From a virus: 40,847 nt of DNA. A program made the position numbers and the translations under genes. This document shows, piece after piece, positions 884 through 40,847 of this stretch. The stretch's first letter is position 1. Every line of letters begins with the position of its first letter. Where the stretch lies: positions 1-40,847 of IMG/VR virus record IMGVR_UViG_3300032116_000491. The stretch is one strand, 5' to 3'. Under the pieces are notes generated by a model. It had not been told where the DNA came from. It was given only the letters and a program-made list of their open reading frames with translations, and did no database searches.

Positions 884-911
884 AATAGAACTCACAAATA
901 GAATAGATAAC

Positions 912-930
912 TTATCCCATTGCGTAGCAG
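912..930 (-). promoter_or_regulatory. Degenerate reverse-strand promoter-like element
   Basis: The reverse strand reads GCTACGCAATGGGATAAG, a variant of the GACGCTACGCTATGGGG family, at the usual distance (39 nt) upstream of the ATG at 883. Confidence 0.4.
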
Positions 931-995
931 CAAAAGGATAATTATGTTGTTAACACAAACGGTAGCACTACTCAAGTGAGCGCTGAGAACTTTAG

Positions 996-1028: not shown

Positions 1029-1040
1029 AAAACCCTTGAG

Positions 1041-1060
1041 TTATCTAATAGCGTAGCGTC
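1041..1060 (-). promoter_or_regulatory. Reverse-strand promoter-like element, copy 1 of a local pair
   Basis: The reverse strand reads GGACGCTACGCTATTAGATA. The core GACGCTACGC is exact. It lies 168 nt upstream of the ATG at 883, farther than most copies. With the copy at 1092-1108 it forms an imperfect tandem of about 50 bp whose units also share CCTA.CTT....ACGTAGA. Confidence 0.5.
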
Positions 1061-1091
1061 CTACCTTCAAACGTAGACAGATAGGCTATTA

Positions 1092-1108
1092 CTTACTAGC
1101 GTAGCGTC
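1092..1108 (-). promoter_or_regulatory. Reverse-strand promoter-like element, copy 2 of a local pair
   Basis: The reverse strand reads GACGCTACGCTAGTAAG, an exact core. It lies just past the terminator of the 1187-1321 gene, so it could restart transcription of the downstream genes (883 to the left edge). Confidence 0.5.
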
Positions 1109-1133
1109 CTAACTTAGAACGTAGAGGACAAAG

Positions 1134-1321: not shown

Positions 1322-1350
1322 ATTTAACTCCAAACAAATATTATTATCAA

Positions 1351-1363
1351 ATAGCGAAGCGTC
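1351..1363 (-). promoter_or_regulatory. Variant reverse-strand promoter-like element
   Basis: The reverse strand reads GACGCTTCGCTAT: one change from the consensus core, 33 nt upstream of ATG 1321, the same spacing as the intact copies. This supports the short start of the 44-residue gene. Confidence 0.5.
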
Positions 1364-1401
1364 AAAGCCTAGTCCATCAAGGGACAAACTAGTAGATAAG
1401 A

Positions 1402-1457: not shown

Positions 1458-4307
1458 TTAAAAGTCAATGTCGATGATACGCATCATAAAGCCAGACTCA
1501 TAGACTTCCATATAGGTAAGTCCAGTTGGCTTGTCAATCTTCTGCTTACGGATAGCAGATAGTTCGACCTCATAGGTATCTGGCACTACATGAGTACCAA
1601 CGTAACCAATCACAATGCCACGCTTGACACTGATGACTGGAAACATCTCAAGAGTCTTGTTCTTCTCATGGAAGACTACGAACTCAGGAGATACCTCACA
1701 CACTGTCTTAAAAGACTCCTTAGTGAGTTTCTCCAACAGTTGAGTACGAGTTACTGCATCAATAGCGTGAGGGGATTTACCACCATGCTTAAATAACACA
1801 GTCTCTTTCTTAAGCAACAACTCAGGAGTGTTCTCAAGAATGCGCTGTGTGAACAGCATCCAAGGCTTGTTAGCTGTGGGAATGTACTCTTTCTTGTCTT
1901 GCCCAACCTCAATGAGACAGTCTTTGTTATAGGACAAATCCCAGAACGCACTGAACTGAGCATCGGTGAATGACTCACAACGCACTCTAGCATCGTCAAT
2001 GAGAGCCGATACCTTCTTAGTATCAGCATCACCTTCCTTGCATAGTGCATCAAAAGCTCTAAGTGAAGCCTTAAAGTCGATAGCCACTTGCTTATCATGG
2101 GCTGAGTAATCACCCCAGATACCACGAAGGTGAGTTAGAGGCTTCATACCATCTAACAACGCTGGCACTTCATGCAATCCATTGACATAGTTGATGCAAG
2201 CAGCAATAGTACCAACATCATGCTTGGGTTTAGCATTGTCACAAAACCCAGCCATCTTCCATGTGTTAAGCCCACGATGGATATAAGGCATAGACCTTAA
2301 ATCACTAGAGCGTTGGTCAGTCTGCCATGCTTGAAAGTACTCCATAGCACCATCAATGATAGACTTCAACTCATCAGGGTTCTGAGGTGCATACTTCTGA
2401 CAGTCAAGGTATAGTTGAGTAGCACCAGTCAATGTCGCAATAGACTCCAACCAAGAGTTGAATCCCTTAACACCACTAGCTTCTGTCGCTTGGCAATACA
2501 TAGAGGTAATGCCACTACAACCCATCTCGAAGGCGCTTTCATAGACTAAGCGAGTTAACTCACCCCATCCACGATTAACCTTGGACTTCTCCTTGATAAC
2601 AGGAGTAATTGGGCAATGTCTCTGAATCTTGACAAAGTGATTGATAGCTTCGAGATAGCCAACTTCATCCTTCCAGACTAGAGTACTATTCCTATCACCA
2701 TCAAAGTCCATAGTGCAGACCGATGCTGATTGATGGCTCATAAACTCGCAACCCGATCCAATACCATCAGGACGATGGACAAGAACGCCCAAGCATTGCT
2801 CGGCATGGTTCATGATAGGCGCTTTGCCCCTAACCACTAACAAGCCAATGTGTTGAGTTCCATTAGACTCAACCATACCAACAGCACCATGTGGTAGTGC
2901 CTTCTTGCCGTTGAACCACTTCCCATCCTTCCACTTAAGAACTCTTGCATCAGATGCACTGATTACATGGAGTGGAAGGGTATCATCAGGTAATGCAGTA
3001 CGAACTCTACCCTCAAAGCCCATGCCTAGAGCTAACTTCATCTTCCTCTTGCTAATGCTAGAGAGGATGCGTTGAATGATGGTTGGGTCTTTGAGCGCCC
3101 AACTTAGATGCTCACTAGTTGCTATGGAGTGCATAGCCTTGTAGAACCAGTCGTCACGGGACTGCTCCACTTCTTCACCATCTTCGTTCTCCTCAAACCA
3201 GATAACCTTAGAGTTGGCTTCTGCATTGAAGAACTTAGCCGCTTCTTGAATAGAAGAACCAGCAGTATTAAGGCGAGCCATCTGTTCTGCAATGTAAGGT
3301 TTGCGAACTTCCAGCACTGACTTACTCATGGAGCGAGCAAACTGAGAGCCAAATGCTGCCTTGCCATCCACAGCCTGCATGGTTGCTCCTAGCGTGATAG
3401 TCAATACACCATCAAGAGTTAACAAGTTAGGATAGCCCAACTTAAAGCATGATTTAGGGATTACCATGTGGTAATCCTCTGCAAGGCTAGGCTCTACCAC
3501 GAATGTTCCCTTAGCCATTGCAGGGCATTCACCCACCATTAGCCTGAATTGACAGCCTTGATTAGCGCTGTCAAGGAATGTCATGGGTTGTCCAGTCGTG
3601 CTGTTGAAGCCCGTGACTTTAGTGCTGAGATAGTTAGCCAAGCCTTGAGAGATTTTGATGTGACAGTCGCCCACACCAGCAACGGACTGACGGGTATCAT
3701 AATGGCGAATAGTCTCATCCTGCCAAGACGAGATAACCTCCCACTTGGGGCTGCCATCAGGGTTTGCGCCAACACACTGGCTGATAGAACCAGCGTGTAC
3801 CTGATAGTTATCAAACTCATCATCCACAATGAGAACCCGTAACTTGGCTGTAACAACAGCCTTGTTGGGAGTGAGTGGAAGCTGGTATCCCATCATTAGC
3901 TGCTCGTATGACTTGCTGGGATGACACATCAAACCTTTGTGTTGGTCATTACCTCTAAAGTATTCAATAAGACGAATGTCACTCGACAGCAACATAGAAG
4001 CAGAGGTCTTAGCACCACTAGTTGCTTGGAGAAGTGAGTAATGCACACCATCCAAGGTAATACCATTGTCAGCTAGAGATTGACTTGCAGAAGCAAGGAC
4101 TTCCATCTGTTGAGCAAGAAGTTCCTTGCCTTTATCGCCGTCCTTCCTTAGCTCTTTGGGCGCGATACCGCCCAACTCAAGAATGACAATAGAGGTTGGC
4201 GAAACCCCCAAGTTGACGCACACTTGCTCTAAGAGAGTCATTCGCAATGGAACTTCCATCGTGCGCTTAAACTGCCCGTCAATAAACTCGTACTTGGCTA
4301 CATTCAT
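1458..4307 (-). CDS. DFDGD-motif RNA polymerase-like protein
   Basis: 949 residues from ATG 4307, with TAAGGAG 9 nt upstream; GTG 4310 and TTG 4313 are in-frame alternatives. At about residues 492-538 the order VVRGKAPIMNHAEQ, then SHQSASVCTMDFDGDRN, parallels the beta-prime barrel of cellular RNA polymerase (RAPTLHR, then a His-Pro segment, then NADFDGDQM). In that family the three Asp of DFDGD bind the catalytic magnesium. A region near residues 255-290 (VGECPAMAKGTFVV) may be the partner barrel, but that is weaker. No palm/finger motifs of T7-type polymerases are seen. The family would be the two-barrel, single-chain polymerases (crAss-like phage, YonO, eukaryotic RNA-dependent polymerases). 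It has its own upstream element and lies in the early arm. The motif is certain; polymerase activity is inferred. Confidence 0.75.
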   Translation of the reverse strand: MNVAKYEFIDGQFKRTMEVPLRMTLLEQVCVNLGVSPTSIVILELGGIAPKELRKDGDKGKELLAQQMEVLASASQSLADNGITLDGVHYSLLQATSGAKTSASMLLSSDIRLIEYFRGNDQHKGLMCHPSKSYEQLMMGYQLPLTPNKAVVTAKLRVLIVDDEFDNYQVHAGSISQCVGANPDGSPKWEVISSWQDETIRHYDTRQSVAGVGDCHIKISQGLANYLSTKVTGFNSTTGQPMTFLDSANQGCQFRLMVGECPAMAKGTFVVEPSLAEDYHMVIPKSCFKLGYPNLLTLDGVLTITLGATMQAVDGKAAFGSQFARSMSKSVLEVRKPYIAEQMARLNTAGSSIQEAAKFFNAEANSKVIWFEENEDGEEVEQSRDDWFYKAMHSIATSEHLSWALKDPTIIQRILSSISKRKMKLALGMGFEGRVRTALPDDTLPLHVISASDARVLKWKDGKWFNGKKALPHGAVGMVESNGTQHIGLLVVRGKAPIMNHAEQCLGVLVHRPDGIGSGCEFMSHQSASVCTMDFDGDRNSTLVWKDEVGYLEAINHFVKIQRHCPITPVIKEKSKVNRGWGELTRLVYESAFEMGCSGITSMYCQATEASGVKGFNSWLESIATLTGATQLYLDCQKYAPQNPDELKSIIDGAMEYFQAWQTDQRSSDLRSMPYIHRGLNTWKMAGFCDNAKPKHDVGTIAACINYVNGLHEVPALLDGMKPLTHLRGIWGDYSAHDKQVAIDFKASLRAFDALCKEGDADTKKVSALIDDARVRCESFTDAQFSAFWDLSYNKDCLIEVGQDKKEYIPTANKPWMLFTQRILENTPELLLKKETVLFKHGGKSPHAIDAVTRTQLLEKLTKESFKTVCEVSPEFVVFHEKNKTLEMFPVISVKRGIVIGYVGTHVVPDTYEVELSAIRKQKIDKPTGLTYMEVYESGFMMRIIDIDF

Positions 4308-4351
4308 CACCAATATCTCCTTACTAGATATGAACTAAACATCAGAAGTCA

Positions 4352-4369
4352 CCCTCATAGCGTAGCGTC
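4352..4369 (-). promoter_or_regulatory. Reverse-strand promoter-like element before the polymerase-like gene
   Basis: The reverse strand reads GACGCTACGCTATGAGGG, 53 nt upstream of ATG 4307. Its end, CTATGAGGG, also forms a 9-bp inverted repeat with 4393-4401. The hairpin GCGT-TACC/GGTA-ACGC overlaps the core. It may be autoregulated if the polymerase-like protein reads these sites. Confidence 0.55.
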
Positions 4370-4434
4370 ATACCTTTCGGGTAACGCAGGGTCTATGAGG
4401 GAAGCAGTTTAGAGTCATGCTTAGGACTGCGGGA

Positions 4435-5560: not shown

Positions 5561-5887
5561 CTAGAATTCTGAGAGTAAGCTGATTAACTCAGCCTTGCGG
5601 AGTGCGCTGTATCCTGTAAAGCCAGAAGCCTTGGCATAGGACTTGAGTTGCTTAACAGTCATAGAGTTAATATCGGGGTAAAGCTCAAACTCACTGATGG
5701 TAGTCACAATAGCGGGAGTTGTCATTGACTTAGCACAGTGGCTTGTGGTCATAGGTAGCGTAGCGTCAGACTCATCGGCAGTGTCTTGAGAGCAGAGATA
5801 CTCATGCGTATCAATGATGAGTGCAATAGAGGAGAAGATAACAACCAACTGAACGCAGAAACCAACAAGAGAGAATAAAGTAGACAT
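5561..5887 (-). CDS. Membrane-anchored protein with Rho_N/SAP-like domain
   Basis: 108 residues from ATG 5887, with TTTGGGA upstream. Residues 4-26 (LFSLVGFCVQLVVIFSSIALII) form one membrane helix or signal anchor. Residues about 72-108 read SMTVKQLKSYAKASGFTGYSALRKAELISLL, the pattern of the Rho N-terminal/SAP-like helical domain (two short helices, with K/R before the second), which usually binds nucleic acid. It is the first gene of the left arm. A core of the promoter-like element (5758-5767) lies inside the coding sequence and encodes DATLP, which suggests either insertion of the repeat or an internal promoter. Confidence 0.7.
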   Translation of the reverse strand: MSTLFSLVGFCVQLVVIFSSIALIIDTHEYLCSQDTADESDATLPMTTSHCAKSMTTPAIVTTISEFELYPDINSMTVKQLKSYAKASGFTGYSALRKAELISLLSEF

Positions 5888-8056: not shown

Positions 8057-8866
8057 TTATGACGCGCTGTATGGATTGTAGGGTTGTGAACGAGTAGGAT
8101 AAGGGGCTTTTGGGACTACAGTGTTCATTTGTTGTGCAAAATGATTTGCTTCTTCAGCGCTCATTTGCTGTAGTTTAGCCATTTGATCTTCAGCCAAACT
8201 ACTTGATTGATAGCTGGATTGGGCGTTGATAGGCTTAGGAGCTAATGCAGAACACAATTGGGCTAGAGTTACCATAGATGCGTTCTTTCCTTGCATGGAA
8301 GACATGACAAGGGATTGTAGTTCAGGCGATCCAATACGCTTGAGTAGTTCGTAGTAGAAAGGCATAAGGTCGTTCTCACGTTCTACCAGTTCGTTGAGGA
8401 GGGCTGAGTCATCCCATTCGTGGAGAGAGCGATGTTTGTGGTTTGGTTCTGAGGACATAGATGCTGCTTTTTCAATAGTAAGGCAAATAGCTGTATTGGT
8501 ATTAGAGATTGCGGTAATCATGTCGGCTAGAGCGTCGAGACGAATGTTGGCTAGGTCAACTTTAGCAATAGCAACTTTGATGCTTGATAGCAATAAACCA
8601 TCTTGCTCAGGGTCGTTGACTAAATATGCACCTTTAAACCCAGTGCTTACGTTTTGGTATTGCTCTTGCATGAACTCATTGTATTTGTCAGCAAATGGTT
8701 TGGGGAGTACGGATGCTCCAATACTATCAACATGGTCGCCTAAAATTGGGAGAGGTTTATCAATAGTAGGGTCAGCAATTGAATCTAGGTTTTCGAGATG
8801 TAGTTCTTCACCTTTAGGCATATTAGATGCTGCATTGGCAAGTGCTAAGTCTAGTGCGTTTGTCAT
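8057..8866 (-). CDS. Hypothetical protein of reverse island 1
   Basis: 269 residues from ATG 8866. Mostly helical, acidic in the middle, with a Gln/Ser/Pro-rich C-terminus (SYQSSSLAEDQMAKLQQMSAEEANHFAQQ). No motif recognised. No clear ribosome site, but an intact promoter-like element lies 39 nt upstream. Its length is unusual among the reverse islands, which otherwise hold genes below 130 codons apart from 19950-20708. Confidence 0.7.
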   Translation of the reverse strand: MTNALDLALANAASNMPKGEELHLENLDSIADPTIDKPLPILGDHVDSIGASVLPKPFADKYNEFMQEQYQNVSTGFKGAYLVNDPEQDGLLLSSIKVAIAKVDLANIRLDALADMITAISNTNTAICLTIEKAASMSSEPNHKHRSLHEWDDSALLNELVERENDLMPFYYELLKRIGSPELQSLVMSSMQGKNASMVTLAQLCSALAPKPINAQSSYQSSSLAEDQMAKLQQMSAEEANHFAQQMNTVVPKAPYPTRSQPYNPYSAS

Positions 8867-8897
8867 AGAAGTTTAGAGATATACTTAGTTTATTCTT

Positions 8898-8914
8898 CCC
8901 CATAGCGTAGCGTC
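8898..8914 (-). promoter_or_regulatory. Reverse-strand promoter-like element
   Basis: The reverse strand reads GACGCTACGCTATGGGG, the best form of the family, 39 nt upstream of ATG 8866. The forward gene on the other side starts 8 nt away and has no ribosome site of its own. Confidence 0.6.
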
Positions 8915-8921
8915 TTTTTAT

Positions 8922-9342: not shown

Positions 9343-10551
9343 ATGGCAACTCCCAACCGTACAGCTTCAATACTAGATGACCTGATAGATGGGTTTAAGA
9401 GTGACTTTAATACAGCGCGATTAGATAGGAAAGCTGCTTATGAGAACTTAGGTAAGAGTGAAGGTAGAACTGCTGCTCAGAACATAGGAGGCTTTGCGGG
9501 TAGGGTAGCGTCTGATGTTATAGGAGATGAGACTAGAAATACCTATTGGCGATACAACCATCCTTTGGCAGTATCGTCATTTGCTGGTAGTGATGCACTA
9601 AAGGTGACTGGTATGCCTGTGGGTTATCAAGCTTTGGGTGGTGCTGCTTTAGCATTAGGTGTTATGCCTATAGCATCGGGTAATTTAGATATAAGTAACC
9701 TAGGAGAGTTTGGTAGACCTAAAGGATATCAGGCTCTATTTGCTGACCCTACTGATAAGACTAAGACTACTAATCCATTGGGCGAGTTTGCTGGTAGGTA
9801 CTTCATTGGTAGGAAAGGTAATATCTTGCCTTATGAGGAGCTAGTCAAAGAAAGACCTGACGTTACACCTGAGAAGTATGCTGCTGCTGTTCAGAGTAGT
9901 GGGTTCATGAGTAAAGACTTCTTTGGATTACAAGATGACCCTACTAAGTCAATAGCACTTGGATTAGGTGCGGGTGCTTTACTTGGGGCTTATAGTCGTA
10001 GAGGTAAGTACTCAAGGGGCGCTGACGGTAAGATTAAGGTAGAGCCTAGGGTAGTAACTGATCCTGAGAACATACCTATATCTAAGTGGACTGATGAGAA
10101 ACAACCTGTAGCTGCTGATATTGAGGCTATAGGTAGGTTCTGGGTTGATTCGCCTAAAAGGGTTGAGATGGGTAGACCTGAGGACTTAGTAGCTGGTGCG
10201 CTCAAAGGGGGTGCTATAGGGGGGCTTGTAGGTGCTGTAGTTCCTAGCCTAGCCGAGTTAGGCGCTATTAAAACACAAAAGAGTTTAAGTGGTGAAGATT
10301 CGATAAGCCTCTTAGGATATGAAGTACCTATGAGTGCAGCATTATTAACTACTGGGGCTGGTGTTGGTCTTAACTATTGGGCTAGAAAACACTTTAAGCC
10401 TAATGACTTTAATACTGAAGATGTTGAAGCTGCCATTGATCAATTCCAAACTAAGAGGCATGACACTCAAGATTCGGTTAAAGGGCTTAATGTCAGGTAC
10501 AACCCAAATACCAAAGGATGGGATTATGTTGATACGCAATCCTTTAAGTAA
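9343..10551 (+). CDS. Glycine-rich multi-segment membrane-active protein
   Basis: 402 residues. Glycine/alanine hydrophobic stretches occur at about 100-116 (LGGAALALGVMPIASG), 203-218 (SIALGLGAGALLGAYS), 283-303 (LKGGAIGGLVGAVVPSLAEL) and 330-345 (MSAALLTTGAGVGLNY), separated by charged loops. This fits a protein that inserts into or spans the host envelope during DNA ejection. No enzymatic motif is seen. It starts 5 nt after the previous stop. Confidence 0.65.
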   Translation: MATPNRTASILDDLIDGFKSDFNTARLDRKAAYENLGKSEGRTAAQNIGGFAGRVASDVIGDETRNTYWRYNHPLAVSSFAGSDALKVTGMPVGYQALGGAALALGVMPIASGNLDISNLGEFGRPKGYQALFADPTDKTKTTNPLGEFAGRYFIGRKGNILPYEELVKERPDVTPEKYAAAVQSSGFMSKDFFGLQDDPTKSIALGLGAGALLGAYSRRGKYSRGADGKIKVEPRVVTDPENIPISKWTDEKQPVAADIEAIGRFWVDSPKRVEMGRPEDLVAGALKGGAIGGLVGAVVPSLAELGAIKTQKSLSGEDSISLLGYEVPMSAALLTTGAGVGLNYWARKHFKPNDFNTEDVEAAIDQFQTKRHDTQDSVKGLNVRYNPNTKGWDYVDTQSFK

Positions 10552-12408: not shown

Positions 12409-13725
12409 ATGACCTACTCCCCACTACGCAGACGTTTAGCTGAACTCATCCCAGAGTTAGCTAATAATGAGACAGCACTTAGATTAGCCCTGCCAGCCGC
12501 TATTGGCGCTACTACTGGTCTAGGCGCACTTGCCTATAATGTTGTAGCACCTTTAGATGTTGACCCTATCGGCTTAGCGGTTGGTAGTGGTCTAGCTCTA
12601 GGCACACAAGGACGTACACCCTATAACTATGCTGGTATTGGCGCACTAGGATTAGAGGGTGCTAGATACCTTAACAATGCATTCACTAACTCTAGTGATA
12701 CTGAAGCATCACCCCTAATTGCTATGGGCATTGGTGCTGGTACTTTAGGGTTGAGGGAAGCATTGAGGAGAGGTGTACTAACTTATCCTGAAGCTGGATT
12801 CCCTGTAGGACGGATGGCTCAAGACTTGGGAAAGCCTAGTGCTACTACACCTATCGATGATGTAGTAGCTGCCCCACCGCCACCTACCAAACCTAATAGA
12901 CCTACACCTAAGCCTAGGGGTGCTAAGCCTGCTGATGAAGTGCCTAACAATCCAAGTACAGGTCAGCCATCAGTGGTAGTACCTGACCAAAGCAGAATGT
13001 ATCTAGCCCGCAACTTAGGCGTGATGTCATCTAAGTTATCCAAGAAAGGTATAGAAAACCTAGGTAACTATGCTAATGAGACACCTCAAAGGAAGGCTCA
13101 ATTATCTTATGACAGTCCTACTGATTACTTTGATAACCTTGTAGACCCTGAAGACTTATTCAAGAGCTATGGGCTAAACACAGTGGTAATTAATCCTAGC
13201 GGGATGTTAGTAGATAGGCGATTACTTGAGAATAGGACTGACTTACTTAATCAACCAGTAGTTCAAATAACACCATCTACATTAGATGCTGGTCATTCTG
13301 AACTAGTCAAGCAAGGACTGGCTAAAGCTGGTCAACCACATCCTAACGTCAGAGCCTATGGTATTGAAACTATCAATGAATTAGCCAAGGGTTCTAGCAC
13401 ATCCCCTAGTGCTATGAATCCATTAGGTTATTACAACAAAGCTGATAACAATACTTGGCAATGGGAGCAGTCCCTAAACCCAGAAGAAATAAGCTCTATG
13501 GTCAAAGATAGGGGTGGTAGAATTGCTGTTAACTTAAACAACATGAAGCCATTGGATACTGTGGAACAGAATGACCTTTACTTAGATGCTTTAGGGTTGA
13601 CAGGCATAGGTGCTTATACTCCCACAGCACCATCTATCCCTAAACAAACATATTACCCCCAATACAACAAAGACTACAGCGTAAGCAAAAGACCTATGAG
13701 AATAGCTAAACAAGGAGATAACTAA
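12409..13725 (+). CDS. Glycine-zipper protein with soluble C-terminal domain
   Basis: 438 residues. Residues about 28-130 carry Gly/Ala-rich hydrophobic stretches (LPAAIGATTGLGALAYNVV; GLAVGSGLALG; GAGTLGLREAL). A Pro/Lys linker (about 155-180) leads into a charged domain of about 240 residues, with VVINPSGMLVDRRLLENRTD and VRAYGIETINELAKG. I do not recognise that domain. It stops in a 1-bp overlap with the next gene (TAATG). Confidence 0.6.
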   Translation: MTYSPLRRRLAELIPELANNETALRLALPAAIGATTGLGALAYNVVAPLDVDPIGLAVGSGLALGTQGRTPYNYAGIGALGLEGARYLNNAFTNSSDTEASPLIAMGIGAGTLGLREALRRGVLTYPEAGFPVGRMAQDLGKPSATTPIDDVVAAPPPPTKPNRPTPKPRGAKPADEVPNNPSTGQPSVVVPDQSRMYLARNLGVMSSKLSKKGIENLGNYANETPQRKAQLSYDSPTDYFDNLVDPEDLFKSYGLNTVVINPSGMLVDRRLLENRTDLLNQPVVQITPSTLDAGHSELVKQGLAKAGQPHPNVRAYGIETINELAKGSSTSPSAMNPLGYYNKADNNTWQWEQSLNPEEISSMVKDRGGRIAVNLNNMKPLDTVEQNDLYLDALGLTGIGAYTPTAPSIPKQTYYPQYNKDYSVSKRPMRIAKQGDN

Positions 13726-17723: not shown

Positions 17724-17920
17724 CGTCCACCTCCATTAGGATGCCCAATCATAGCTACTAGTTGTTTGGTGACCTTATACATCCTAAATGCATAGTTAGG
17801 TTGTTTCTCTTGCCAGTAATGCCACATCTCAATAGCTGTAGTCTCATCACATCCAAGGTCACAGTAATGCTCCCAGTTATCATCATTGGTGATGCAACGC
17901 TCTAGGGTGTAGTTAATCAT
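17720..17920 (-). CDS. Small hypothetical protein of reverse island 2
   Basis: 66 residues; GAGGTATTAG is upstream. Contains LERCITNDDNWEHYCDLGCD and then YAFRMYKVTKQLVAM, a weak version of the YRIVK-type C-terminal pattern. The start overlaps the stop of the gene before (ATGATTAA). Confidence 0.7.
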   Translation of the reverse strand: MINYTLERCITNDDNWEHYCDLGCDETTAIEMWHYWQEKQPNYAFRMYKVTKQLVAMIGHPNGGGR

Positions 17921-18086
17921 CTAATACCTCAACCTCTCCTGCCACTAATTTGTATTCAGTCCCTTTATAAGCTTTTCTACATAGGGCAATATGTGTTTTA
18001 ACAGCATCTAGGCTCTCAAAGTATTCACCAATAACAGACCAGTTTTTAGAATAGTGCGACCTGTAAAGAATCATGTATAGTTTCAT
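17913..18086 (-). CDS. Small protein, first gene of reverse island 2
   Basis: 57 residues from ATG 18086, with GAGGGACTA upstream and the promoter-like element about 29 nt before the ATG. A longer frame from 18152 would cross that element and the start of the terminase gene. MKLYMILYRSHYSKNWSVIG, then a central helix and an end EYKLVAGEVEVLDD of the YRIVK...VLD type. Confidence 0.7.
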   Translation of the reverse strand: MKLYMILYRSHYSKNWSVIGEYFESLDAVKTHIALCRKAYKGTEYKLVAGEVEVLDD

Positions 18087-18108
18087 TAGTCCCTCAGTTA
18101 TTAATCCT

Positions 18109-18124
18109 CCCCTAGCGTAGCGTT
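18109..18124 (-). promoter_or_regulatory. Reverse-strand promoter-like element
   Basis: The reverse strand reads AACGCTACGCTAGGGG and then AGGATTAATAACTGAGGG, 29 nt before ATG 18086. The large terminase ATG is 5 nt away on the other strand and has no ribosome site. Confidence 0.6.
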
Positions 18125-18129
18125 CCCCT

Positions 18130-19949: not shown

Positions 19950-20708
19950 TTAGTAGGGAATGTCATACTGATTAGCAAAGGCAGCTAGAGACTGTAGAGC
20001 CTGTCTAGCTTTCATGGTTTCTTGCATAGCTAAGTACTGTTGCCCTAAGTCATCGCTTATCCCCCGTGGTAGCCTCTCCCCTAATGGCTCTAGTACATCA
20101 CTTGCCATAGCACTCATTGAAGGCTGTGGGTTAGGTGCTACTTGAGGTTGTGATAAGTCTATAGCCATGCGTCTACCCATACTATCTATAGGTCTACGCA
20201 GTTGAGATGCATAACGAATTAGGCTGTTAGAAGTTAAAGGGTTGTATCCACTGGATAGCAGATCACCTATCTCATCCTCCATGCTTAACTTACCTACTTG
20301 AGCAGCTTGTTTAAACCCAGTATTCAAAGCTTGGATAGCTCTAGACTGTAGACCATCGCCTTCCCACTTAGGACTACCCTTGCCAGTGCGATGAGTTAAA
20401 GTATTCAGATAACTAGATACTTCGCCTTGACCAGCCCTTTTGTACAGCTCATCCATAAGTCTAGGATGTTGCATAAACTTAGCAGCATTAATGTCTGACA
20501 ACAGCATTAGGTTAGACGTTTCAGGCAACATCTCTCTTAACCCAAAGAATGCACTGTCAGCATCAGCAAAGTTATACCCTGCGTACTCAACTGGATATTG
20601 TCTCTTTAGTTTAGAAGCTCTTAGAGTGGGATTAGTAAGAGCCTGAAGAAACACGTCAGGGCTTTTGCTATAAATGTTGTTAGGGATTAGCCAAGGCTTT
20701 TGATACAT
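19950..20708 (-). CDS. Hypothetical protein of reverse island 3
   Basis: 252 residues from ATG 20708. The N-terminal 120 residues are distinctive (KPWLIPNNIYSKSPDVFLQA, then YPVEYAGYNFADADSAFFGL and KGSPKWEGDGLQSRAIQAL) and look like a real fold, but I cannot name it. The C-terminal 80 residues are Pro/Gln/Met-rich and then helical. It is a single-gene island with its own promoter-like element 25 nt upstream, between terminase and portal. The 155-bp gap to the terminase holds only a 22-codon frame that I do not call. Confidence 0.7.
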   Translation of the reverse strand: MYQKPWLIPNNIYSKSPDVFLQALTNPTLRASKLKRQYPVEYAGYNFADADSAFFGLREMLPETSNLMLLSDINAAKFMQHPRLMDELYKRAGQGEVSSYLNTLTHRTGKGSPKWEGDGLQSRAIQALNTGFKQAAQVGKLSMEDEIGDLLSSGYNPLTSNSLIRYASQLRRPIDSMGRRMAIDLSQPQVAPNPQPSMSAMASDVLEPLGERLPRGISDDLGQQYLAMQETMKARQALQSLAAFANQYDIPY

Positions 20709-20726
20709 AGTTGTTATTAACTCTTT

Positions 20727-20742
20727 CTCCTAGCGTAGCGTA
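20727..20742 (-). promoter_or_regulatory. Reverse-strand promoter-like element
   Basis: The reverse strand reads TACGCTACGCTAGGAG, 25 nt before ATG 20708. The first base and the G-run deviate from consensus, but the position fits. Confidence 0.55.
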
Positions 20743-20776
20743 TAGTAAGAGTAACTAATATTAGATAGAGATATAC

Positions 20777-22882: not shown

Positions 22883-23402
22883 TCAGGGTAATCCTCTCGC
22901 CTCGGTAATCGAACTAATCAATAGCTTTGGCAATGGATCGCCTGAGCTAGCCATTGCACGCATCCATCAACAACTCATCCATCGTGAAGACCAATTAGGT
23001 GAAGTAGTTGCCTATACTCAAGCTCTTGAGAAGGAAGCTATTCAAATGGGTCAGATTCTATCTAGCCCTGAAAACACTGGTTATTGGCTCCAATACCAAG
23101 AGTTCCATCTTGCTCAACTACCTGAAGTAATTAACTTCCGCACTGCTTACCCTAAAGCAACCTTTGAGCAATACTACGACTACCTAGTACGCTCTAATCA
23201 ACCACAAGGACAAGTTCAAGAACGTCCTCCCGCACCTTTAGGCTATGAGTATGCTCCTGAACCACAACGACCCACATTCAATCAAATGAATATGGGCTTG
23301 GGTCAAGGTGCTACTCAAGGTAGTGGTCGTGGACGTATGACTGATGTACTACGCCAACTTGATTCAGGTCACTTTGGTCAGCTCGTTAGTCAGTTGGCTT
23401 AG
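22500..23402 (+). CDS. Capsid scaffold candidate, overlapping the portal gene by 383 bp
   Basis: 300 residues in the +1 frame relative to the portal. The first 128 residues are Gln/Pro-rich (APQTVAPQWQSAPQLVSPYP) and lie wholly within the portal tail. From about residue 130 the protein is helical and charged (IARIHQQLIHREDQLGEVVA), as scaffolds are, and it ends Gly/Arg then helix (GRMTDVLRQLDSGHFGQLV). ATG 22500 is the first start after an in-frame stop at 22494; no good ribosome site is seen, so an internal start is possible. Its place between portal and capsid supports the scaffold role. Confidence 0.7.
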   Translation: MVQALPQNYQVQQAPSPQVAPQTVAPQWQSAPQLVSPYPSTGLTPQYSHPQQFAPTTGGWIQTTPQSVVAPTQQANPVTDYLTLNGLVPNSYLPNPTSVQPQYSPQVTSPTRQYSPKLDLNAPSGKDSQGNPLASVIELINSFGNGSPELAIARIHQQLIHREDQLGEVVAYTQALEKEAIQMGQILSSPENTGYWLQYQEFHLAQLPEVINFRTAYPKATFEQYYDYLVRSNQPQGQVQERPPAPLGYEYAPEPQRPTFNQMNMGLGQGATQGSGRGRMTDVLRQLDSGHFGQLVSQLA

Positions 23403-23670
23403 AGACTAGAGAGACAAGGAGAGCTAAAGGCGTTACTGCTGAGTGAACCTTGAGTACATCATCAGACGTTTGAAGGCTAGATATTAAAGCAATCTGACCT
23501 TGAATCAATCCATGAATACCTTGTAGTTCCTCAGTGGTTAGTCCTGTGAAGGCAACCTTGTCTGACATATCTTTAACAAGAGCCTTTAGATATTCGTTGT
23601 TTTCTCCTAGCCTTTCCATCTCAGCCTTTTGCCTTTCGATAATCATCATTGCTTCGGCATGATTGAACAT
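23386..23670 (-). CDS. Small coiled-coil protein, reverse island 4
   Basis: 94 residues: MFNHAEAMMIIERQKAEMER and on through a heptad-like helix, then TTEELQGIHGLIQGQIALIS. Family unknown. Its 3' end overlaps the scaffold gene by 17 bp in opposite directions. A degenerate promoter-like element lies 29 nt upstream. Confidence 0.65.
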   Translation of the reverse strand: MFNHAEAMMIIERQKAEMERLGENNEYLKALVKDMSDKVAFTGLTTEELQGIHGLIQGQIALISSLQTSDDVLKVHSAVTPLALLVSLVSKPTD

Positions 23671-23692
23671 AGCTCATTTCTCATAACATCAT

Positions 23693-23708
23693 CCCTTACC
23701 GTAGGGAC
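23693..23708 (-). promoter_or_regulatory. Degenerate reverse-strand promoter-like element
   Basis: The reverse strand reads GTCCCTACGGTAAGGG and then ATGATG. It keeps CTACG-TA-GGG and the usual 29-nt distance to ATG 23670. Confidence 0.4.
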
Positions 23709-23737
23709 TCCGCTTACACCTTACCCACTCCTAAGAA

Positions 23738-26070: not shown

Positions 26071-26099
26071 ATCGCCTCTTAGGTCAAGAAGATTTCAGA

Positions 26100-26126
26100 A
26101 AGCCCTATCTATTATGGATGGGGCTT
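26100..26126. terminator. Hairpin between convergent genes
   Basis: A ten-pair stem with one wobble (26100-26109 with 26117-26126; AAGCCC/GGGCTT at the base) and a 7-nt loop. The reverse-strand continuation TCTGAAATCTTCTT is T-rich but broken. It could weakly end both the structural gene at 26070 and the reverse gene at 26140. Confidence 0.4.
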
Positions 26127-26139
26127 CTCTGTATAGACT

Positions 26140-26373
26140 TTAAAAGTCTAGTACCTCAAATGTAGTTGTAGCTTTCATAATTCGATATTTTGCAACAGCC
26201 CGACTATTAAGACAAACAGCACTTTCATTCTCACGCCTTGCCTTTTGAAGAAGCAGCCTAGCATCGTGAATATTATCTATTCTTGGAGTGTTTAAACTGT
26301 AATCACTTAGCAGCCATCTATCATCCTTAAAGCAAACTTCAACAACGTATAAAAAAACTTTAGTCTCACTCAT
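26140..26373 (-). CDS. Small protein with YRIMK-VLDF end, reverse island 5
   Basis: 77 residues (MSETKVFLYVVEVCFKDDRW at the start; VAKYRIMKATTTFEVLDF at the end). It is a paralogue in layout of 17333-17563: an N-terminal strand reporting on a query, a helix with paired basic/acidic residues, and a TTT-VLD strand. Promoter-like element 26 nt upstream. Function unknown. Confidence 0.7.
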   Translation of the reverse strand: MSETKVFLYVVEVCFKDDRWLLSDYSLNTPRIDNIHDARLLLQKARRENESAVCLNSRAVAKYRIMKATTTFEVLDF

Positions 26374-26390
26374 CTCTTAACCCTAAATCT

Positions 26391-26408
26391 CCCCCATAGC
26401 GTAGCGTA
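26391..26408 (-). promoter_or_regulatory. Reverse-strand promoter-like element
   Basis: The reverse strand reads TACGCTACGCTATGGGGG and then AGATTTAGGG, 26 nt before ATG 26373. Only the first base departs from the consensus. Confidence 0.6.
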
Positions 26409-26449
26409 GGGTATCATTAGAACATCACTATTATTGACCCGATCCCGAT

Positions 26450-29662: not shown

Positions 29663-29881
29663 TTAAAGCCCTAACTTATCAAGTAAATCTTTAATTGCAA
29701 CTTTCATCTTAGGCTCAAGAAGTGCGCTTAGATTATTAATCATTTGCATCATTTCTTTGCGGCATTCAGTAATAGTCTCTAAGGGAATTTCTCGCCTTAA
29801 AAAGACTAATGCCTCTAACACAGTTTTTGTGTCATCACCAAGCAAGCCAAATAAAGCTAGCGTAATTTCTTTGTCAGTCAT
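29663..29881 (-). CDS. Small helical MTDKE protein, first gene of reverse island 7
   Basis: 72 residues: MTDKEITLALFGLLGDDTKT, helical to the end. A paralogue at 32635-32805 begins MTDREKALFILGYSQGNQET and shares the same spacing of Leu and Glu. Promoter-like element 32 nt upstream; no ribosome site. Confidence 0.7.
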   Translation of the reverse strand: MTDKEITLALFGLLGDDTKTVLEALVFLRREIPLETITECRKEMMQMINNLSALLEPKMKVAIKDLLDKLGL

Positions 29882-29906
29882 TTAAGTAAGGTACTATAGA
29901 TATTAT

Positions 29907-29922
29907 CCCCTAGCGTAGCGTC
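29907..29922 (-). promoter_or_regulatory. Reverse-strand promoter-like element
   Basis: The reverse strand reads GACGCTACGCTAGGGG and then ATAATATC, 32 nt before ATG 29881. It heads the largest embedded reverse island (seven genes). Confidence 0.6.
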
Positions 29923-29930
29923 CATCCCTC

Positions 29931-31606: not shown

Positions 31607-31768
31607 TTAGTTCACTGTATATTCTGTAATTGATTCAACTTCGTTGACATAACCGCAATGAGGGCAAAACACAAGGCTCCCCTCTTGTGGCTTAATATCA
31701 GCACACGTCCACCATTTGCTGCAACTGTCGCAGTTGTAGTGGTAAAGAAATTCTAGCGATACTTCCAT
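31607..31768 (-). CDS. Zinc-ribbon micro-protein
   Basis: 53 residues: MEVSLEFLYHYNCDSCSKWW, a spacer, FCPHCGYVNEVESITEYTVN. Two CxxC knuckles 22 residues apart (CDSC and CPHC) give a complete treble-clef or ribbon zinc site. Such phage proteins often bind nucleic acid or host polymerase; the role here is unknown. First gene of reverse island 9, with the promoter-like element 29 nt upstream. Confidence 0.75.
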   Translation of the reverse strand: MEVSLEFLYHYNCDSCSKWWTCADIKPQEGSLVFCPHCGYVNEVESITEYTVN

Positions 31769-31790
31769 GTTCACAGTATATTTAAACTAT

Positions 31791-31806
31791 CCCCTAGCGT
31801 AGCGTC
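31791..31806 (-). promoter_or_regulatory. Reverse-strand promoter-like element
   Basis: The reverse strand reads GACGCTACGCTAGGGG and then ATAGTTTAAA, 29 nt before ATG 31768. The forward ATG (31809) is only 2 nt from it. Confidence 0.6.
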
Positions 31807-31808
31807 TT

Positions 31809-32654
31809 ATGTCCATCATCCCTTGCAGGCAACTTCTTACCTCATCCCTAACGCTCTACGTCAACTGGTGGGGTTCGGATACTAATAATGGACTAGCACC
31901 ACAAACAGCTTTTCAAACTATACAAGCAGCAATACTAGCCTTTAGTACTAAGTATGATACTGGAGGCTATGACCACACTATTAAACTAGCTGATGGATAC
32001 TATAACGGTGCTACGTTAACTGAAGTAACTGGTGGTGGTAGCATTACAATTACTGGGAATGGGGCAGGCACTATTATCAAGGGTAACATCCAAGTCAATC
32101 AAAGACGCACTAGATATATCCTCAAGAACTTAACGTTTGCCCCTGAAAACACCTTTGCTGTATCTGCTGTCAATGGATACATAGAACTAGCCGAAGGTAT
32201 CACCTACAACATTACTCAAGCTACATCGCCAGCACTCCTAGTATCAGAGCTAGATGGTGTGATTAGGGTAATGAATGACTTTGCCCTTACCTATACAACT
32301 GGTGTACTACCTACCTTAGCCTTTGCTAGAAGCTCTGGGAAGATAGTACTTCAGAATAGGCAAGTAACAGCTACAGGTGCTTTGAACTGGTTAACTGCTA
32401 CTTTGTGGGCACAGAGTTCTGGTATTATAGATGCACGTAACTTTAGACACACTGGCACTGACCCGACATCAGGTTTACGCTCAATCCAAGAATCTAGCGG
32501 AATCATAATTGGAGATAGCGGTACAGACATTCTAGGTACTACCAATGGCTCTACTACTTTAGTAACCCAGACTGAACCTGTAGTAATACCTCAAGCACAA
32601 CTTGGCTTTACGATGCCTATTAGTTTCAGTACTGCTACTTATTCTCTATCCTAG
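31809..32654 (+). CDS. Parallel beta-helix tail spike-like protein
   Basis: 281 residues. SLTLYVNWWGSDTNNGLAPQ, then TAFQTIQAAI is the DUF1565-type opening of right-handed beta-helix proteins (YV...GSD.N.G....F.TIQ.A). It is followed by repeating short strands (GSITITGNGAGTIIKGNIQV; LAEGITYNITQATSPALLVS). No catalytic triad of a depolymerase is evident. Probably a tail spike or fibre that meets host polysaccharide. Confidence 0.7.
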   Translation: MSIIPCRQLLTSSLTLYVNWWGSDTNNGLAPQTAFQTIQAAILAFSTKYDTGGYDHTIKLADGYYNGATLTEVTGGGSITITGNGAGTIIKGNIQVNQRRTRYILKNLTFAPENTFAVSAVNGYIELAEGITYNITQATSPALLVSELDGVIRVMNDFALTYTTGVLPTLAFARSSGKIVLQNRQVTATGALNWLTATLWAQSSGIIDARNFRHTGTDPTSGLRSIQESSGIIIGDSGTDILGTTNGSTTLVTQTEPVVIPQAQLGFTMPISFSTATYSLS

Positions 32655-32805
32655 TAAAGATTATTTTCTTTAATTCAGCTATTTCATCATGCCAAGATTC
32701 AAGCAAGTCAATACTGATACCTAGTAACAACATTAACTTCATTACTGTTTCTTGATTGCCTTGAGAGTACCCTAGGATAAATAAAGCTTTCTCTCTATCA
32801 GTCAT
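32635..32805 (-). CDS. Small helical MTDRE protein, reverse island 10
   Basis: 56 residues: MTDREKALFILGYSQGNQET, then VMKLMLLLGISIDLLESWHD and EIAELKKIIFTRIENK. GAGGGTCGGATT lies before the ATG. Paralogue of 29663-29881. Overlaps the tail gene by 20 bp. The promoter-like element 30 nt upstream confirms the start. Confidence 0.7.
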   Translation of the reverse strand: MTDREKALFILGYSQGNQETVMKLMLLLGISIDLLESWHDEIAELKKIIFTRIENK

Positions 32806-32826
32806 AATCCGACCCTCTTAATCTTT

Positions 32827-32844
32827 CCCCCATAGCGTAGCGTC
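32827..32844 (-). promoter_or_regulatory. Reverse-strand promoter-like element
   Basis: The reverse strand reads GACGCTACGCTATGGGGG and then AAAGATTAAG, 30 nt before ATG 32805. The forward ATG 32846 follows after one base. Confidence 0.6.
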
Positions 32845-32845
32845 C

Positions 32846-34348
32846 ATGAGTACAATCTCCCCTCAAGAATCCCAGTACTATAAAGAATTTGTCACACCCT
32901 TTCAACCACAGGGGCGCTCTTTCCTTGGCTATGACTTGCGTGGTACTCAGTGCGATAGGTTTGGTAATGGTAATCTAAGGCTAACGGGGTATGGAGATTC
33001 TAGCGGTGGATATGCTTTCACTCCTGCCAACCAAGATGCTGCTATAGCCCCATCTCTTAGTAGCGCTAATCTATCAAACATAGCTAATTCAATACCTCAA
33101 CTCACAGAGCAGCAAGATTTTGCTGGTAAGTGGATAGATACAATAACACTTCATGCCCTTGACGAATTCATTGAGCAAACCGAACCACAATCCTTCATCG
33201 CTAATACACTACGCATCTTTGCGGGCGGGCAGAAGGGATATAGAGAAGATGGCACTGGTAGAGCCAATGTTCGCAATACCTACACACTCCTAGCTGAGAT
33301 ATCTATACCCGCACTTACTAGGGCTGATATACCTAGAAGCTTCCCTGTCAAAGCAGGAGTATATGTCCCACCAGCACAGAACCTTTATCTAGGACTAGCA
33401 ATACCACAACCCTATACTTGCAGCTTTGAGATGTGGGATTTACAAGCCAACACTCTAGTCGGTAGTGGCGTATCAGCATCTATAGGAGGATCGCCCACTG
33501 TTAGTAGTGGTAATGATTTGATTGAAGAAAATCCAAATACTCCTGTCGATACACAATTTGTGTTACCCATCTCTTTTGCTTCTGCCACTTGGAAGAAAGG
33601 AGTAGCAGATTTCACTGTAACTCCGCCTCCTCCTACCCCATTACCAACACCGCCCACGGGCACAAGTTCTCCTAGTCCAGACCCTAACCCGGGATCGCCT
33701 AACCCTAGTAGTCCATCCTCACCTACAGCGCCTAGCCCAAGTCCTAGTGACAGTGTCCCACCTCCTACTGCTGGTGGATGTACCCCTATCCAAAACTGTA
33801 CTTGGCACACCGTGACTAGCGCTCAATCAGCACAGGTAGATATGAACCTCAATGGGGGAACCAACCTATGTCCTGCGGGAACCATAGCTAGAGGGGTGGT
33901 CGATTTTGAGACTGCTGGCTCGTTTGTCCTTTGTTGCACTCCTGCTACATTCCCACCTAACAATCTAGGGTGTTCTTCTCTTAACAGGTATTCATGCAGT
34001 GGAGGTGTCTGCGTAATTGATGCTTTCGGCTCATACAGTTCGCAAGCACAATGTGAAGCGGCGCTTGTCCGCACTATTACTCTTTCTGCAAACTTTTGGA
34101 ATCCCATTTGTGGATGTGCTAATTGTTCCCCAGAAACTTACACTTTTACTTTAAGCCCTTCAGCTGTTGCTCCATTTACCCCAGTCTATACATATTTAGA
34201 TGGAATTTGCGGAGGACGATATACGGTGATCGTAGTCGATTCGCTTGGCAATAGAGTAGATCAGGGGGTAACTTGCTTTGATGGAGTAAGTTGTTCTATG
34301 ATTGGTCAAGGCGCTGTTAGTATATCTGTTTCTTCTTCCTGTCCGTAG
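32846..34348 (+). CDS. Tail protein with Pro-rich linker and Cys-rich end
   Basis: 500 residues. Residues 1-250 are beta-rich (YYKEFVTPFQPQGRSFLGYD; GVYVPPAQNLYLGLAIPQPY) and probably attach to the tail. Residues about 255-310 are a Pro/Ser/Thr linker. The last 190 residues contain about 20 Cys (GGCTPIQNCTWHTV; CCTPATFPPNNLGC; YSCSGGVCVIDAFGSYSSQA), the sort of disulphide-bonded tip expected outside the cell. The codons of the Cys-rich part look less AT-biased, so it may be acquired. Likely the host-binding adhesin. Confidence 0.65.
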   Translation: MSTISPQESQYYKEFVTPFQPQGRSFLGYDLRGTQCDRFGNGNLRLTGYGDSSGGYAFTPANQDAAIAPSLSSANLSNIANSIPQLTEQQDFAGKWIDTITLHALDEFIEQTEPQSFIANTLRIFAGGQKGYREDGTGRANVRNTYTLLAEISIPALTRADIPRSFPVKAGVYVPPAQNLYLGLAIPQPYTCSFEMWDLQANTLVGSGVSASIGGSPTVSSGNDLIEENPNTPVDTQFVLPISFASATWKKGVADFTVTPPPPTPLPTPPTGTSSPSPDPNPGSPNPSSPSSPTAPSPSPSDSVPPPTAGGCTPIQNCTWHTVTSAQSAQVDMNLNGGTNLCPAGTIARGVVDFETAGSFVLCCTPATFPPNNLGCSSLNRYSCSGGVCVIDAFGSYSSQAQCEAALVRTITLSANFWNPICGCANCSPETYTFTLSPSAVAPFTPVYTYLDGICGGRYTVIVVDSLGNRVDQGVTCFDGVSCSMIGQGAVSISVSSSCP

Positions 34349-35247: not shown

Positions 35248-35334
35248 TCAATTATAGAAGTCCCATAAACCTCTAGCGTACCAGCCCGCAACTACGAAAC
35301 TACCAGCCATAACAATCCAAACGAATAAGGTCAT
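35248..35334 (-). CDS. 28-residue membrane micro-protein
   Basis: MTLFVWIVMAGSFVVAGWYA then RGLWDFYN: one membrane helix with a short aromatic/basic tail. AGGTGAACT precedes the ATG, and the start overlaps the stop of the next gene (ATGA). The tight coupling of two single-helix proteins is typical of lysis or toxin-like small gene pairs. No other lysis gene is visible in the window. Confidence 0.55.
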   Translation of the reverse strand: MTLFVWIVMAGSFVVAGWYARGLWDFYN

Positions 35335-35435
35335 AGTTCACCTACTAGAATAAGAATAAACATTCCTAAGCAAATTAGGAAACCTAATGCTGTATATCCA
35401 ATGATAACTAGCTTTAGGATTAAGTCGATATCCAT
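35331..35435 (-). CDS. 34-residue membrane micro-protein
   Basis: MDIDLILKLVIIGYTALGFL, then ICLGMFILILVGEL: acidic N-terminus and one long hydrophobic helix. GAGGATGAT precedes the ATG, and the promoter-like element lies 28 nt upstream. First gene of reverse island 11. Holin or antiholin is a candidate role only. Confidence 0.6.
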   Translation of the reverse strand: MDIDLILKLVIIGYTALGFLICLGMFILILVGEL

Positions 35436-35455
35436 ATCATCCTCACATATTTCTA

Positions 35456-35472
35456 CCCCATAGCGTAGCGTG
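35456..35472 (-). promoter_or_regulatory. Reverse-strand promoter-like element
   Basis: The reverse strand reads CACGCTACGCTATGGGG and then TAGAAATATG, 28 nt before ATG 35435, supporting the micro-protein pair as a real unit. Confidence 0.6.
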
Positions 35473-35508
35473 ATAGTATATTGGAATTACAACTATTGCC
35501 CTAAACTT

Positions 35509-37877: not shown

Positions 37878-38109
37878 CAATCTTCCTCACTACTGGTTCC
37901 TTTTTCCAAGTAACAGTAATTTGAATATCAAGGTTTAATGCTTCCGCTATCTGTTCAATATCTTCTAAGCCAATGCCTCTTTTTGCGTCTTCTATTAAAG
38001 AAATTCTAGAATGACCGCATCCTAGCTTACGAGCTAAATCAGATTGAGTCATTCCAGCTTCTATCCTCAACTCCCTAATCAGTTGAGCTACTTGTGTTCT
38101 TAAGTTCAT
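37870..38109 (-). CDS. XRE-family transcriptional regulator
   Basis: 79 residues. LRTQVAQLIRELRIEAGMTQ, SDLARKLGCGHSRISLIEDA and IGLEDIEQIAEALNLDI form the five-helix Cro/CI-type domain, with the recognition helix at GHSRISLIEDA. No ribosome site, so it may start near its transcript end. A degenerate promoter-like element lies 32 nt upstream. It is a candidate binder of the ATTATACG-N4-CGTATAAT palindromes, unproven. Confidence 0.85.
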   Translation of the reverse strand: MNLRTQVAQLIRELRIEAGMTQSDLARKLGCGHSRISLIEDAKRGIGLEDIEQIAEALNLDIQITVTWKKEPVVRKIDV

Positions 38110-38130
38110 GCGTGCAATTAAAATAATGTG

Positions 38131-38149
38131 TTATCTAATTGCGTAGCAT
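38131..38149 (-). promoter_or_regulatory. Degenerate reverse-strand promoter-like element
   Basis: The reverse strand reads AATGCTACGCAATTAGATA. It shares ATTAGATAAC with the copy at 1041-1060 and stands 32 nt before ATG 38109. Confidence 0.4.
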
Positions 38150-38188
38150 TATTTAGAACTCTGTATTAGGTTCTACAAATCCATTAGT

Positions 38189-40301: not shown

Positions 40302-40310
40302 AGTTTTATC

Positions 40311-40325
40311 TATCAGCGTAGCGTC
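40311..40325 (-). promoter_or_regulatory. Reverse-strand promoter-like element
   Basis: The reverse strand reads GACGCTACGCTGATA, an exact core without the G-run, 15 nt before ATG 40301 and overlapping the end of the gene upstream. Confidence 0.45.
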
Positions 40326-40648
40326 TTAGGCTCTGCAATGGAACGAGCCACTTCCTTCAACACGCACACAACTTCACCCCTAGCCATAACACCACCAGCT
40401 TTTCGGAAAGCGGTACTCATTTGCTTAGAGTTAATTAGAGGTACTAGGTCAACCCAACCACTGATGTTATTGAGCAGAGCATCATTCTTAAGTGATTGCT
40501 TCAGTTCCTTTGTGACAGAACTAAACTTAGTCCCTAGCCACTCACTGACTAACTTCTCTAGTTCTTCATAGTTATAGTGATGAGCTATGCGGGCATAGTA
40601 AGTTTTGTAGTCAATCAGTTTGTTTAAATAATCTTGTCTATCGGTCAT
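40313..40648 (-). CDS. Hypothetical helical protein
   Basis: 111 residues from ATG 40648, with AAGGATAACA upstream. A longer frame to 40723 runs through the element. MTDRQDYLNKLIDYKTYYAR, then SVTKELKQSLKNDALLNNIS and MSTAFRKAGGVMARGEVVCV. It starts MTDR like the 32635-32805 protein but does not align further. Family unknown. Confidence 0.65.
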   Translation of the reverse strand: MTDRQDYLNKLIDYKTYYARIAHHYNYEELEKLVSEWLGTKFSSVTKELKQSLKNDALLNNISGWVDLVPLINSKQMSTAFRKAGGVMARGEVVCVLKEVARSIAEPKTLR

Positions 40649-40671
40649 TGTTATCCTTATGTATACTGTTA

Positions 40672-40688
40672 CCCTATAGCGTAGCGTC
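40672..40688 (-). promoter_or_regulatory. Reverse-strand promoter-like element with CTATAGGG
   Basis: The reverse strand reads GACGCTACGCTATAGGG and then TAACAG, 31 nt before ATG 40648. The CTATAGGG end is the copy most like a T7-class initiation site. It overlaps the stop of 40674-40847. Confidence 0.6.
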
Positions 40689-40847
40689 TTTAGATAGGGT
40701 ATAGGAGTTGAGTAACAGGTCATCTATATCTAGTACACAACCTAGCGCTATATCCCATATCACGTACTTCCAGTAGGGTTCTCTATACTTATCAAGAATA
40801 TCCCACTCCATACCAATGACTTGTACTAAGTCACCATCACTATCCTT
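40674..40847 (-). CDS. Partial gene at the right edge
   Basis: The last 57 codons of a reverse-strand gene whose start is outside. It begins KDSDGDLVQVIGMEWDILDK and continues YREPYWKYVIWDIALGCVLD, ending in TLSKDATL, where the last residues are coded by the promoter-like element. No family recognised. It shows that the window is cut here. Confidence 0.7.
   Translation of the reverse strand, partial: KDSDGDLVQVIGMEWDILDKYREPYWKYVIWDIALGCVLDIDDLLLNSYTLSKDATL

Follow-up and report, generated by a model that had tools for sequence, protein, structure and literature searches.

Phage-specific promoters and phage-encoded single-chain RNA polymerases are both known kinds of element. In the Thermus phage P23-45, it has been proposed that the non-virion RNA polymerase gp64 transcribes the early genes and some of the middle genes from GC-rich promoters, and late RNA is made by the host enzyme (PMC10770324). 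YonO of the Bacillus phage SPbeta transcribes late structural genes (PMC5467207). In the T7-type systems (Autographiviridae), one phage polymerase is paired with one contiguous promoter block of approximately 18-23 bp, which runs into a G-rich start and is found on one strand. A search of the open-access literature returned no description of the motif reported here or of a YonO promoter sequence; the motif, a very divergent candidate enzyme, and the co-occurrence of the two appear to be new.

The locus studied here resembles P23-45 in combining a candidate phage-encoded single-chain polymerase carrying a DxDGD signature with a dedicated short promoter-like motif before non-structural genes, the late genes of P23-45 being left to the host enzyme. 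However, the two proteins show no significant profile match, the motifs differ, and the motif described here is much more sharply conserved and lies nearly all on one strand. As in the T7-type systems, a contiguous block ends in a G-rich start and a single phage polymerase is proposed to read it, but the promoter sequence is different and no T7-family polymerase was found in the genome. SPbeta YonO serves structural genes, whereas the structural genes here, located on the other strand, carry no motif. We assign the whole account, in which the motif is a promoter and a 951-aa protein of the YonO/two-barrel type is its reader, a probability of about 0.68; the promoter part taken by itself is very probable on the sequence evidence.

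The window, meaning the whole 40,847-nt stretch of DNA that was analysed, is the IMG/VR record of a freshwater virus (IMGVR_UViG_3300032116_000491). Among its products are a terminase of phage type and a major head protein, and most of its gene products have no known function. The portal protein shares 31% identity with its counterpart in S-EIV1 (KJ410740), a freshwater phage of Synechococcus, a relationship from which a cyanobacterial host is probable; S-EIV1 differs in lacking both the motif and any D.DGD-containing ORF of at least 100 aa. Other IMG/VR contigs belong to the same species (about 98.8-100% identity). Two contigs, G006 and G001, extend the window on both sides and overlap one another by 73 nt, so the genome would be a circle or a circular permutation of approximately 61 kb. 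G013, G002, and G008 are relatives with roughly 70-88% DNA identity, and the seven-contig set used below comprises the window, the rest of its genome, and relatives in about this range. Matches to the motif occurred in 39 stretches, many of them pieces of one species that were not treated as independent, and several single matches in contigs of other composition resemble chance.

Exact copies of the core ACGCTACGCTA were found 13 times on the minus strand of the window and never on the plus strand. Twelve of these correspond to main sites listed in a preliminary description of this DNA, and the other (5756-5766) falls within a coding ORF; the remaining main site, at 40311, is the variant ACGCTACGCTG. 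All 13 main sites of that description were recovered, with positions within 1-2 nt, as were three of its five degenerate sites (912, 1351, and 38131), while 23693 was weak and 4691 received no support from the weight matrix. When up to three mismatches were allowed, the 17-mer gave 10 matches in the window, all on the minus strand, compared to 0.03 expected. To avoid circularity, the weight matrix was trained only on 21 sites of diverged relatives before the window was scanned; at a score of 12 it found 17 sites on the minus strand and none on the plus strand, with 0.10 in shuffles. Across the seven contigs the core occurred 65 times on the motif strand and once on the opposite strand, the 65 being not fully independent since they include homologous sites of related species (L092 may be the same phage as G002). 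The genome of the window virus carries about two dozen copies, nearly all in the same direction. The earlier statement that the core never occurs in the opposite orientation is true of the window but not of the genome beyond it, where one such copy, the sole one in this genome, lies at G006 (L059) 9428-9438 on the minus strand. It was noted that no ORF follows this copy and that a possible GGGAG/CTCCC hairpin does.

Alignment of 65 distinct sites from the seven contigs gave the consensus RCGCTACGCTA-kGGrtAA, approximately 18 contiguous bases ending in a G-rich start. Outside the core, information is carried only by about the next eight bases, which read k, G/T, G, G, A/G, T/G, A, and A before an AT-rich leader. 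The preliminary description had likened the G-run end, together with CTATAGGG in one copy, to a phage initiation site, and the contiguous block running into a G-rich start agrees with this; CTATAGGG is a minority variant, the usual post-core sequence being kGGrtAA. Rfam gave nothing at the motif sites. Upstream of the core we found no information and no conserved -35 region at the 65 sites, and the motif does not have the sigma-70 architecture of -35 and -10 hexamers separated by 16-18 nt. It is nevertheless conceivable, though unlikely, that the host RNA polymerase reads these phage promoters, either with TACGCT as a -10 element or through redirection by an unrecognised sigma-like or activator protein of the phage. 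TACGCT does fit the loose TANNNT pattern of bacterial -10 elements, T4-type late promoters likewise have no -35, and the phage encodes a helix-turn-helix (HTH) regulator amid its many uncharacterised proteins. However, known -10 elements have nothing like the invariant CGC that lies within and before this hexamer, no sigma-70 region 2 was detected while a candidate polymerase is present, and canonical sigma-70 sites were rarer in the region tested than in shuffles (23 versus 42).

The core is also a 5-bp direct repeat (ACGCT ACGCT A), which would suit an operator at the promoters of reverse-strand genes, bound by a phage regulator such as the Cro/CI-type HTH protein (HTH by Pfam; gene 37870-38109), whose own gene has a motif site. 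We regard this as improbable: operators of the Cro/CI type are usually palindromic and the motif is not, conservation continues into the G-rich start region at a fixed distance from the ATG, and no other conserved promoter sequence lies next to the motif.

At 49 of the 65 sites, an ORF of at least 30 aa had its first ATG 20-40 nt downstream of the core, with a peak at 23-28 nt; random positions reached this spacing 5.5 times on average and at most 14 times in 300 trials, a contrast that is somewhat flattered because the control drew any position and not only intergenic ones, although the peak itself is independent of the control. With the ORF length set at 70 aa or more, sites were located 5-50 nt before the start of 33 of the 98 ORFs on the motif strand and of none of the 101 on the opposite strand, and approximately nine of the 65 sites had no ORF behind them. 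In the window, the distance from the core end to the reverse ATG was 22-36 nt at most sites, sharper than the preliminary description had it, and 44-50 nt before the candidate polymerase gene; the distance to the forward gene varied, as had been claimed, and ran from -2 to 42 nt. At homologous places in the relatives the reverse spacing stayed at 22-39 nt, whereas forward distances ranged from -2 to 95 nt. What we find is what characterizes a family of phage-specific promoters, one conserved, oriented sequence at a fixed distance before genes of its own strand, and the earlier proposal of a strand-polar promoter for reverse-strand genes is strengthened by these comparisons.

The relatives were also informative where gene content differs. 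Next to the portal gene, the window has a reverse ORF of 252 aa and G013 one of 67 aa, with the same site and spacing, so that the motif stays with a different reverse gene. The window has a reverse cassette beside gene 26450; G013 and G008 have none there or a different one, and no motif either. In general, relatives that lack a reverse cassette usually lack the motif at that place as well. G013 carries two further cassettes with near-identical leaders and the same spacing. The cassettes may be moron-like autonomous units, each with its own promoter, gene, and terminator between late genes: a promoter-like site and presence or absence between relatives were observed, and a hairpin was seen after 26140-26373. 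In L106, a relative with 74% identity, the motif at 1130-1147 stands directly before the terminase with no visible reverse gene; this copy may be a relic or an antisense promoter.

The L106 copy would also be expected of an element serving the forward genes as a leader, translation, or termination signal, as would the several forward starts 2-9 nt from a motif and those that abut one at 31809, 32846, and 18130, also in relatives. We consider such a role very improbable, since the forward distances are so variable, no forward gene lies beside the sites at 910, 1039, 1087, 1342, 4348, 38129, and 40304, and the motif disappears with the reverse cassette. Equally improbable is a sequence with no role in transcription, whether a short dispersed repeat such as cyanobacterial genomes commonly contain or a polar element used in packaging or replication. 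The strict polarity over most of the genome, the internal direct repeat, and the copies with no ORF behind them are compatible with such a sequence, but the tight start-codon spacing, the rarity inside coding sequences, the dependence on gene strand, and the extra G013 cassettes with the motif at the same spacing argue against it. The sites are collected in the table below.

Table. Motif sites and the candidate polymerase gene in the window (scores are those of the weight matrix; distances run from the core end to the start codon; G and L identifiers are relatives)
Feature	Position	Strand	Score	Start codon and gene behind	Relatives and remarks
Promoter-like site, degenerate (CTGCTACGCAATGGGATAA)	910..934	-	13.2	ATG at 883 of 62-aa ORF 695-883	
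Promoter-like site, second of tandem pair	1039..1063	-	31.7	no clear ORF behind	pair conserved in L010/G002
Promoter-like site, first of tandem pair	1087..1111	-	27.6		conserved in G002
Promoter-like site (GACGCTTCGCTA)	1342..1366	-	18.9	ATG 30 nt on, small ORF 1187-1321	
Candidate single-chain (YonO/two-barrel type) RNA polymerase	1458..4313	-		up to 951 aa	CTMDFDGDRN at residues 533-542
Promoter-like site before candidate polymerase gene	4348..4372	-	25.5	TTG/GTG/ATG at 44/47/50 nt	equivalent in L010
Core copy within ORF 5561-5887	5746..5770	-	12.2		identical core in corresponding G002 ORF
Promoter-like site, lead copy of the preliminary description	8893..8917	-	31.9	ATG 36 nt on, gene 8057-8866	G002/G013 equivalents at 35/39 nt
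Promoter-like site	18103..18127	-	25.5	ATG 26 nt on, ORF 17913-18086	variants in G013, G002, L106
Promoter-like site	20721..20745	-	22.4	ATG 22 nt on, gene 19950-20708	different reverse ORF behind in G013
Weak site (CCCTACGGTAAGGGATGA)	23687..23711	-	6.6	before ORF 23386-23670	similar sequence in G013
Promoter-like site	26387..26411	-	28.0	ATG 23 nt on, gene 26140-26373	gene followed by hairpin near 26085-26125
Promoter-like site	29901..29925	-	30.8	ATG 29 nt on, gene 29663-29881	G008 equivalent at 27 nt
Promoter-like site	31785..31809	-	31.9	ATG 26 nt on, ORF 31607-31768	G008/G013 equivalents at 30/35 nt
Promoter-like site	32823..32847	-	32.7	ATG 27 nt on, ORF 32635-32805	G008 and G013 equivalents at 23 nt
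Promoter-like site	35451..35475	-	31.8	ATG 25 nt on, small ORF 35331-35435	G008/G013 equivalents at 25/24 nt
Promoter-like site (ATGCTACGCAATTAGATAA)	38129..38153	-	18.6	ATG 29 nt on, HTH regulator gene 37870-38109	
Promoter-like site (GACGCTACGCTGATAGATAA)	40304..40328	-	23.3	second ATG (40289) of ORF 39852-40301, 24 nt on	
Promoter-like site	40667..40691	-	32.4	ATG 28 nt on	G013 equivalent at 26 nt

The positions of the motif correct several gene starts and explain the interleaved reverse genes of the structural region. From its distance to the motif, the gene within ORF 39852-40301 may start at 40289, and the gene behind the last site in the table is probably 40313-40648 (111 aa). On the minus strand, hairpins resembling intrinsic terminators were observed at 1400-1460, after the candidate polymerase gene, and at 1130-1190, after the small ORF 1187-1321, the latter with a run of T; promoter, gene, and terminator units would follow one another in succession here. 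The tandem sites at 1039-1111 are approximately 48 nt apart and recur in the relative L010 at about 12918-12976, and perhaps belong to a small RNA or an unrecognised gene. Copies of CTCAAGGACGCTACGCTACT with conserved sequence and no ORF were noted in two species, in L059 at about 11921 and 14669 and in L057/L056 (1691 and 4245 in the G013 motif orientation), where a non-coding RNA or an origin is possible. Rfam also reported a tRNA in both species, at L059 15115-15241 and L057 17160-17238. At 127 nt the L059 match is unusually long, and ARAGORN predicts no tRNA at this place; an insertion or intron is possible.

For the reader of the motif, a T7-family RNA polymerase was rejected: PF00940 had no match in G000, G001, G002, G006, or G013, and the T7 positive control was recovered at E 9.9e-110. 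Nor was a sigma factor found, with no match to sigma-70 region 2 across the contigs covering the roughly 61-kb genome. A YonO-like single-chain polymerase is a likelier reader than a T7-family enzyme, and the 951-aa protein encoded behind its own copy of the motif is the candidate. It had no sequence match in Pfam, PHROG, or PDB, and scans of the window with PF04983 and PF05183 returned nothing. Viral scans identified further relatives only in L009 and L010, and none were found in a scan of genome contigs. The L010 counterpart is 80% identical overall and conserves CTMDFDGDRN; the DxDGD catalytic signature, present as DFDGD, is conserved in both relatives.

Using hhalign, a two-sequence profile of the protein was compared with nine YonO-family proteins, giving a score of 32.8 (P 0.0073, probability 5%). 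The maximum among 21 other protein pairs of these phages was 21.8, the reversed protein scored 20.4, and 400 column shuffles reached at most 26.8. The permissive alignment ran from residue 3 to 944 and matched DFDGD with DxDGD of YonO, and LDCQKY with the D..K motif downstream of it. YonO and its relatives are the best profile match, colinear, of similar length, and with DxDGD in register, but very distant in sequence; these comparisons point to a detectable homology to the YonO family that is good but remote. The profile comparison with P23-45 gp64 was not significant, and a structure model of the protein had a pLDDT of 29. The motif precedes the polymerase gene in two species (the window and L010), and from this co-occurrence and the exclusion of other readers we consider the 951-aa protein the probable reader.

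In the mechanism that we propose, RCGCTACGCTA-kGGrtAA would promote transcription of its own strand; the G-run just past the core is the most likely start, which would leave a leader of about 20-28 nt to the ATG. The genes driven would be the non-structural genes of one strand, including the polymerase, the HTH regulator, small genes, and replication-type genes outside the window, as well as the small reverse-strand cassettes lodged among the structural genes of the other strand, and the polarity of the motif would simply be that of the genes served. As for timing, we infer that, soon after infection, the first round of transcription of the polymerase gene must come from elsewhere, from a host or virion enzyme. 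The 951-aa enzyme would then start at each G-run and produce short-leader mRNAs of the non-structural genes and reverse cassettes. With its gene behind a copy of its own promoter, the enzyme would amplify its own expression in a positive feedback. The structural genes would presumably be transcribed by the host polymerase.

Whether a single-chain polymerase of the YonO/two-barrel type recognises an 18-bp promoter alone, with no sigma factor, the two forming an orthogonal pair in a probable cyanophage, is a proposition to which we give even odds. The founding YonO paper described its promoter sequence as unknown, and likewise whether YonO finds promoters alone (PMC5467207); with many natural motif copies and a candidate enzyme in one genome, promoter recognition can therefore be tested directly. 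It has been proposed that YonO-like polymerases are similar to the single-chain ancestor of cellular RNA polymerases (PMC5467207), and, if the account is true, the motif would spell out for the first time the promoter code of a YonO-like enzyme.
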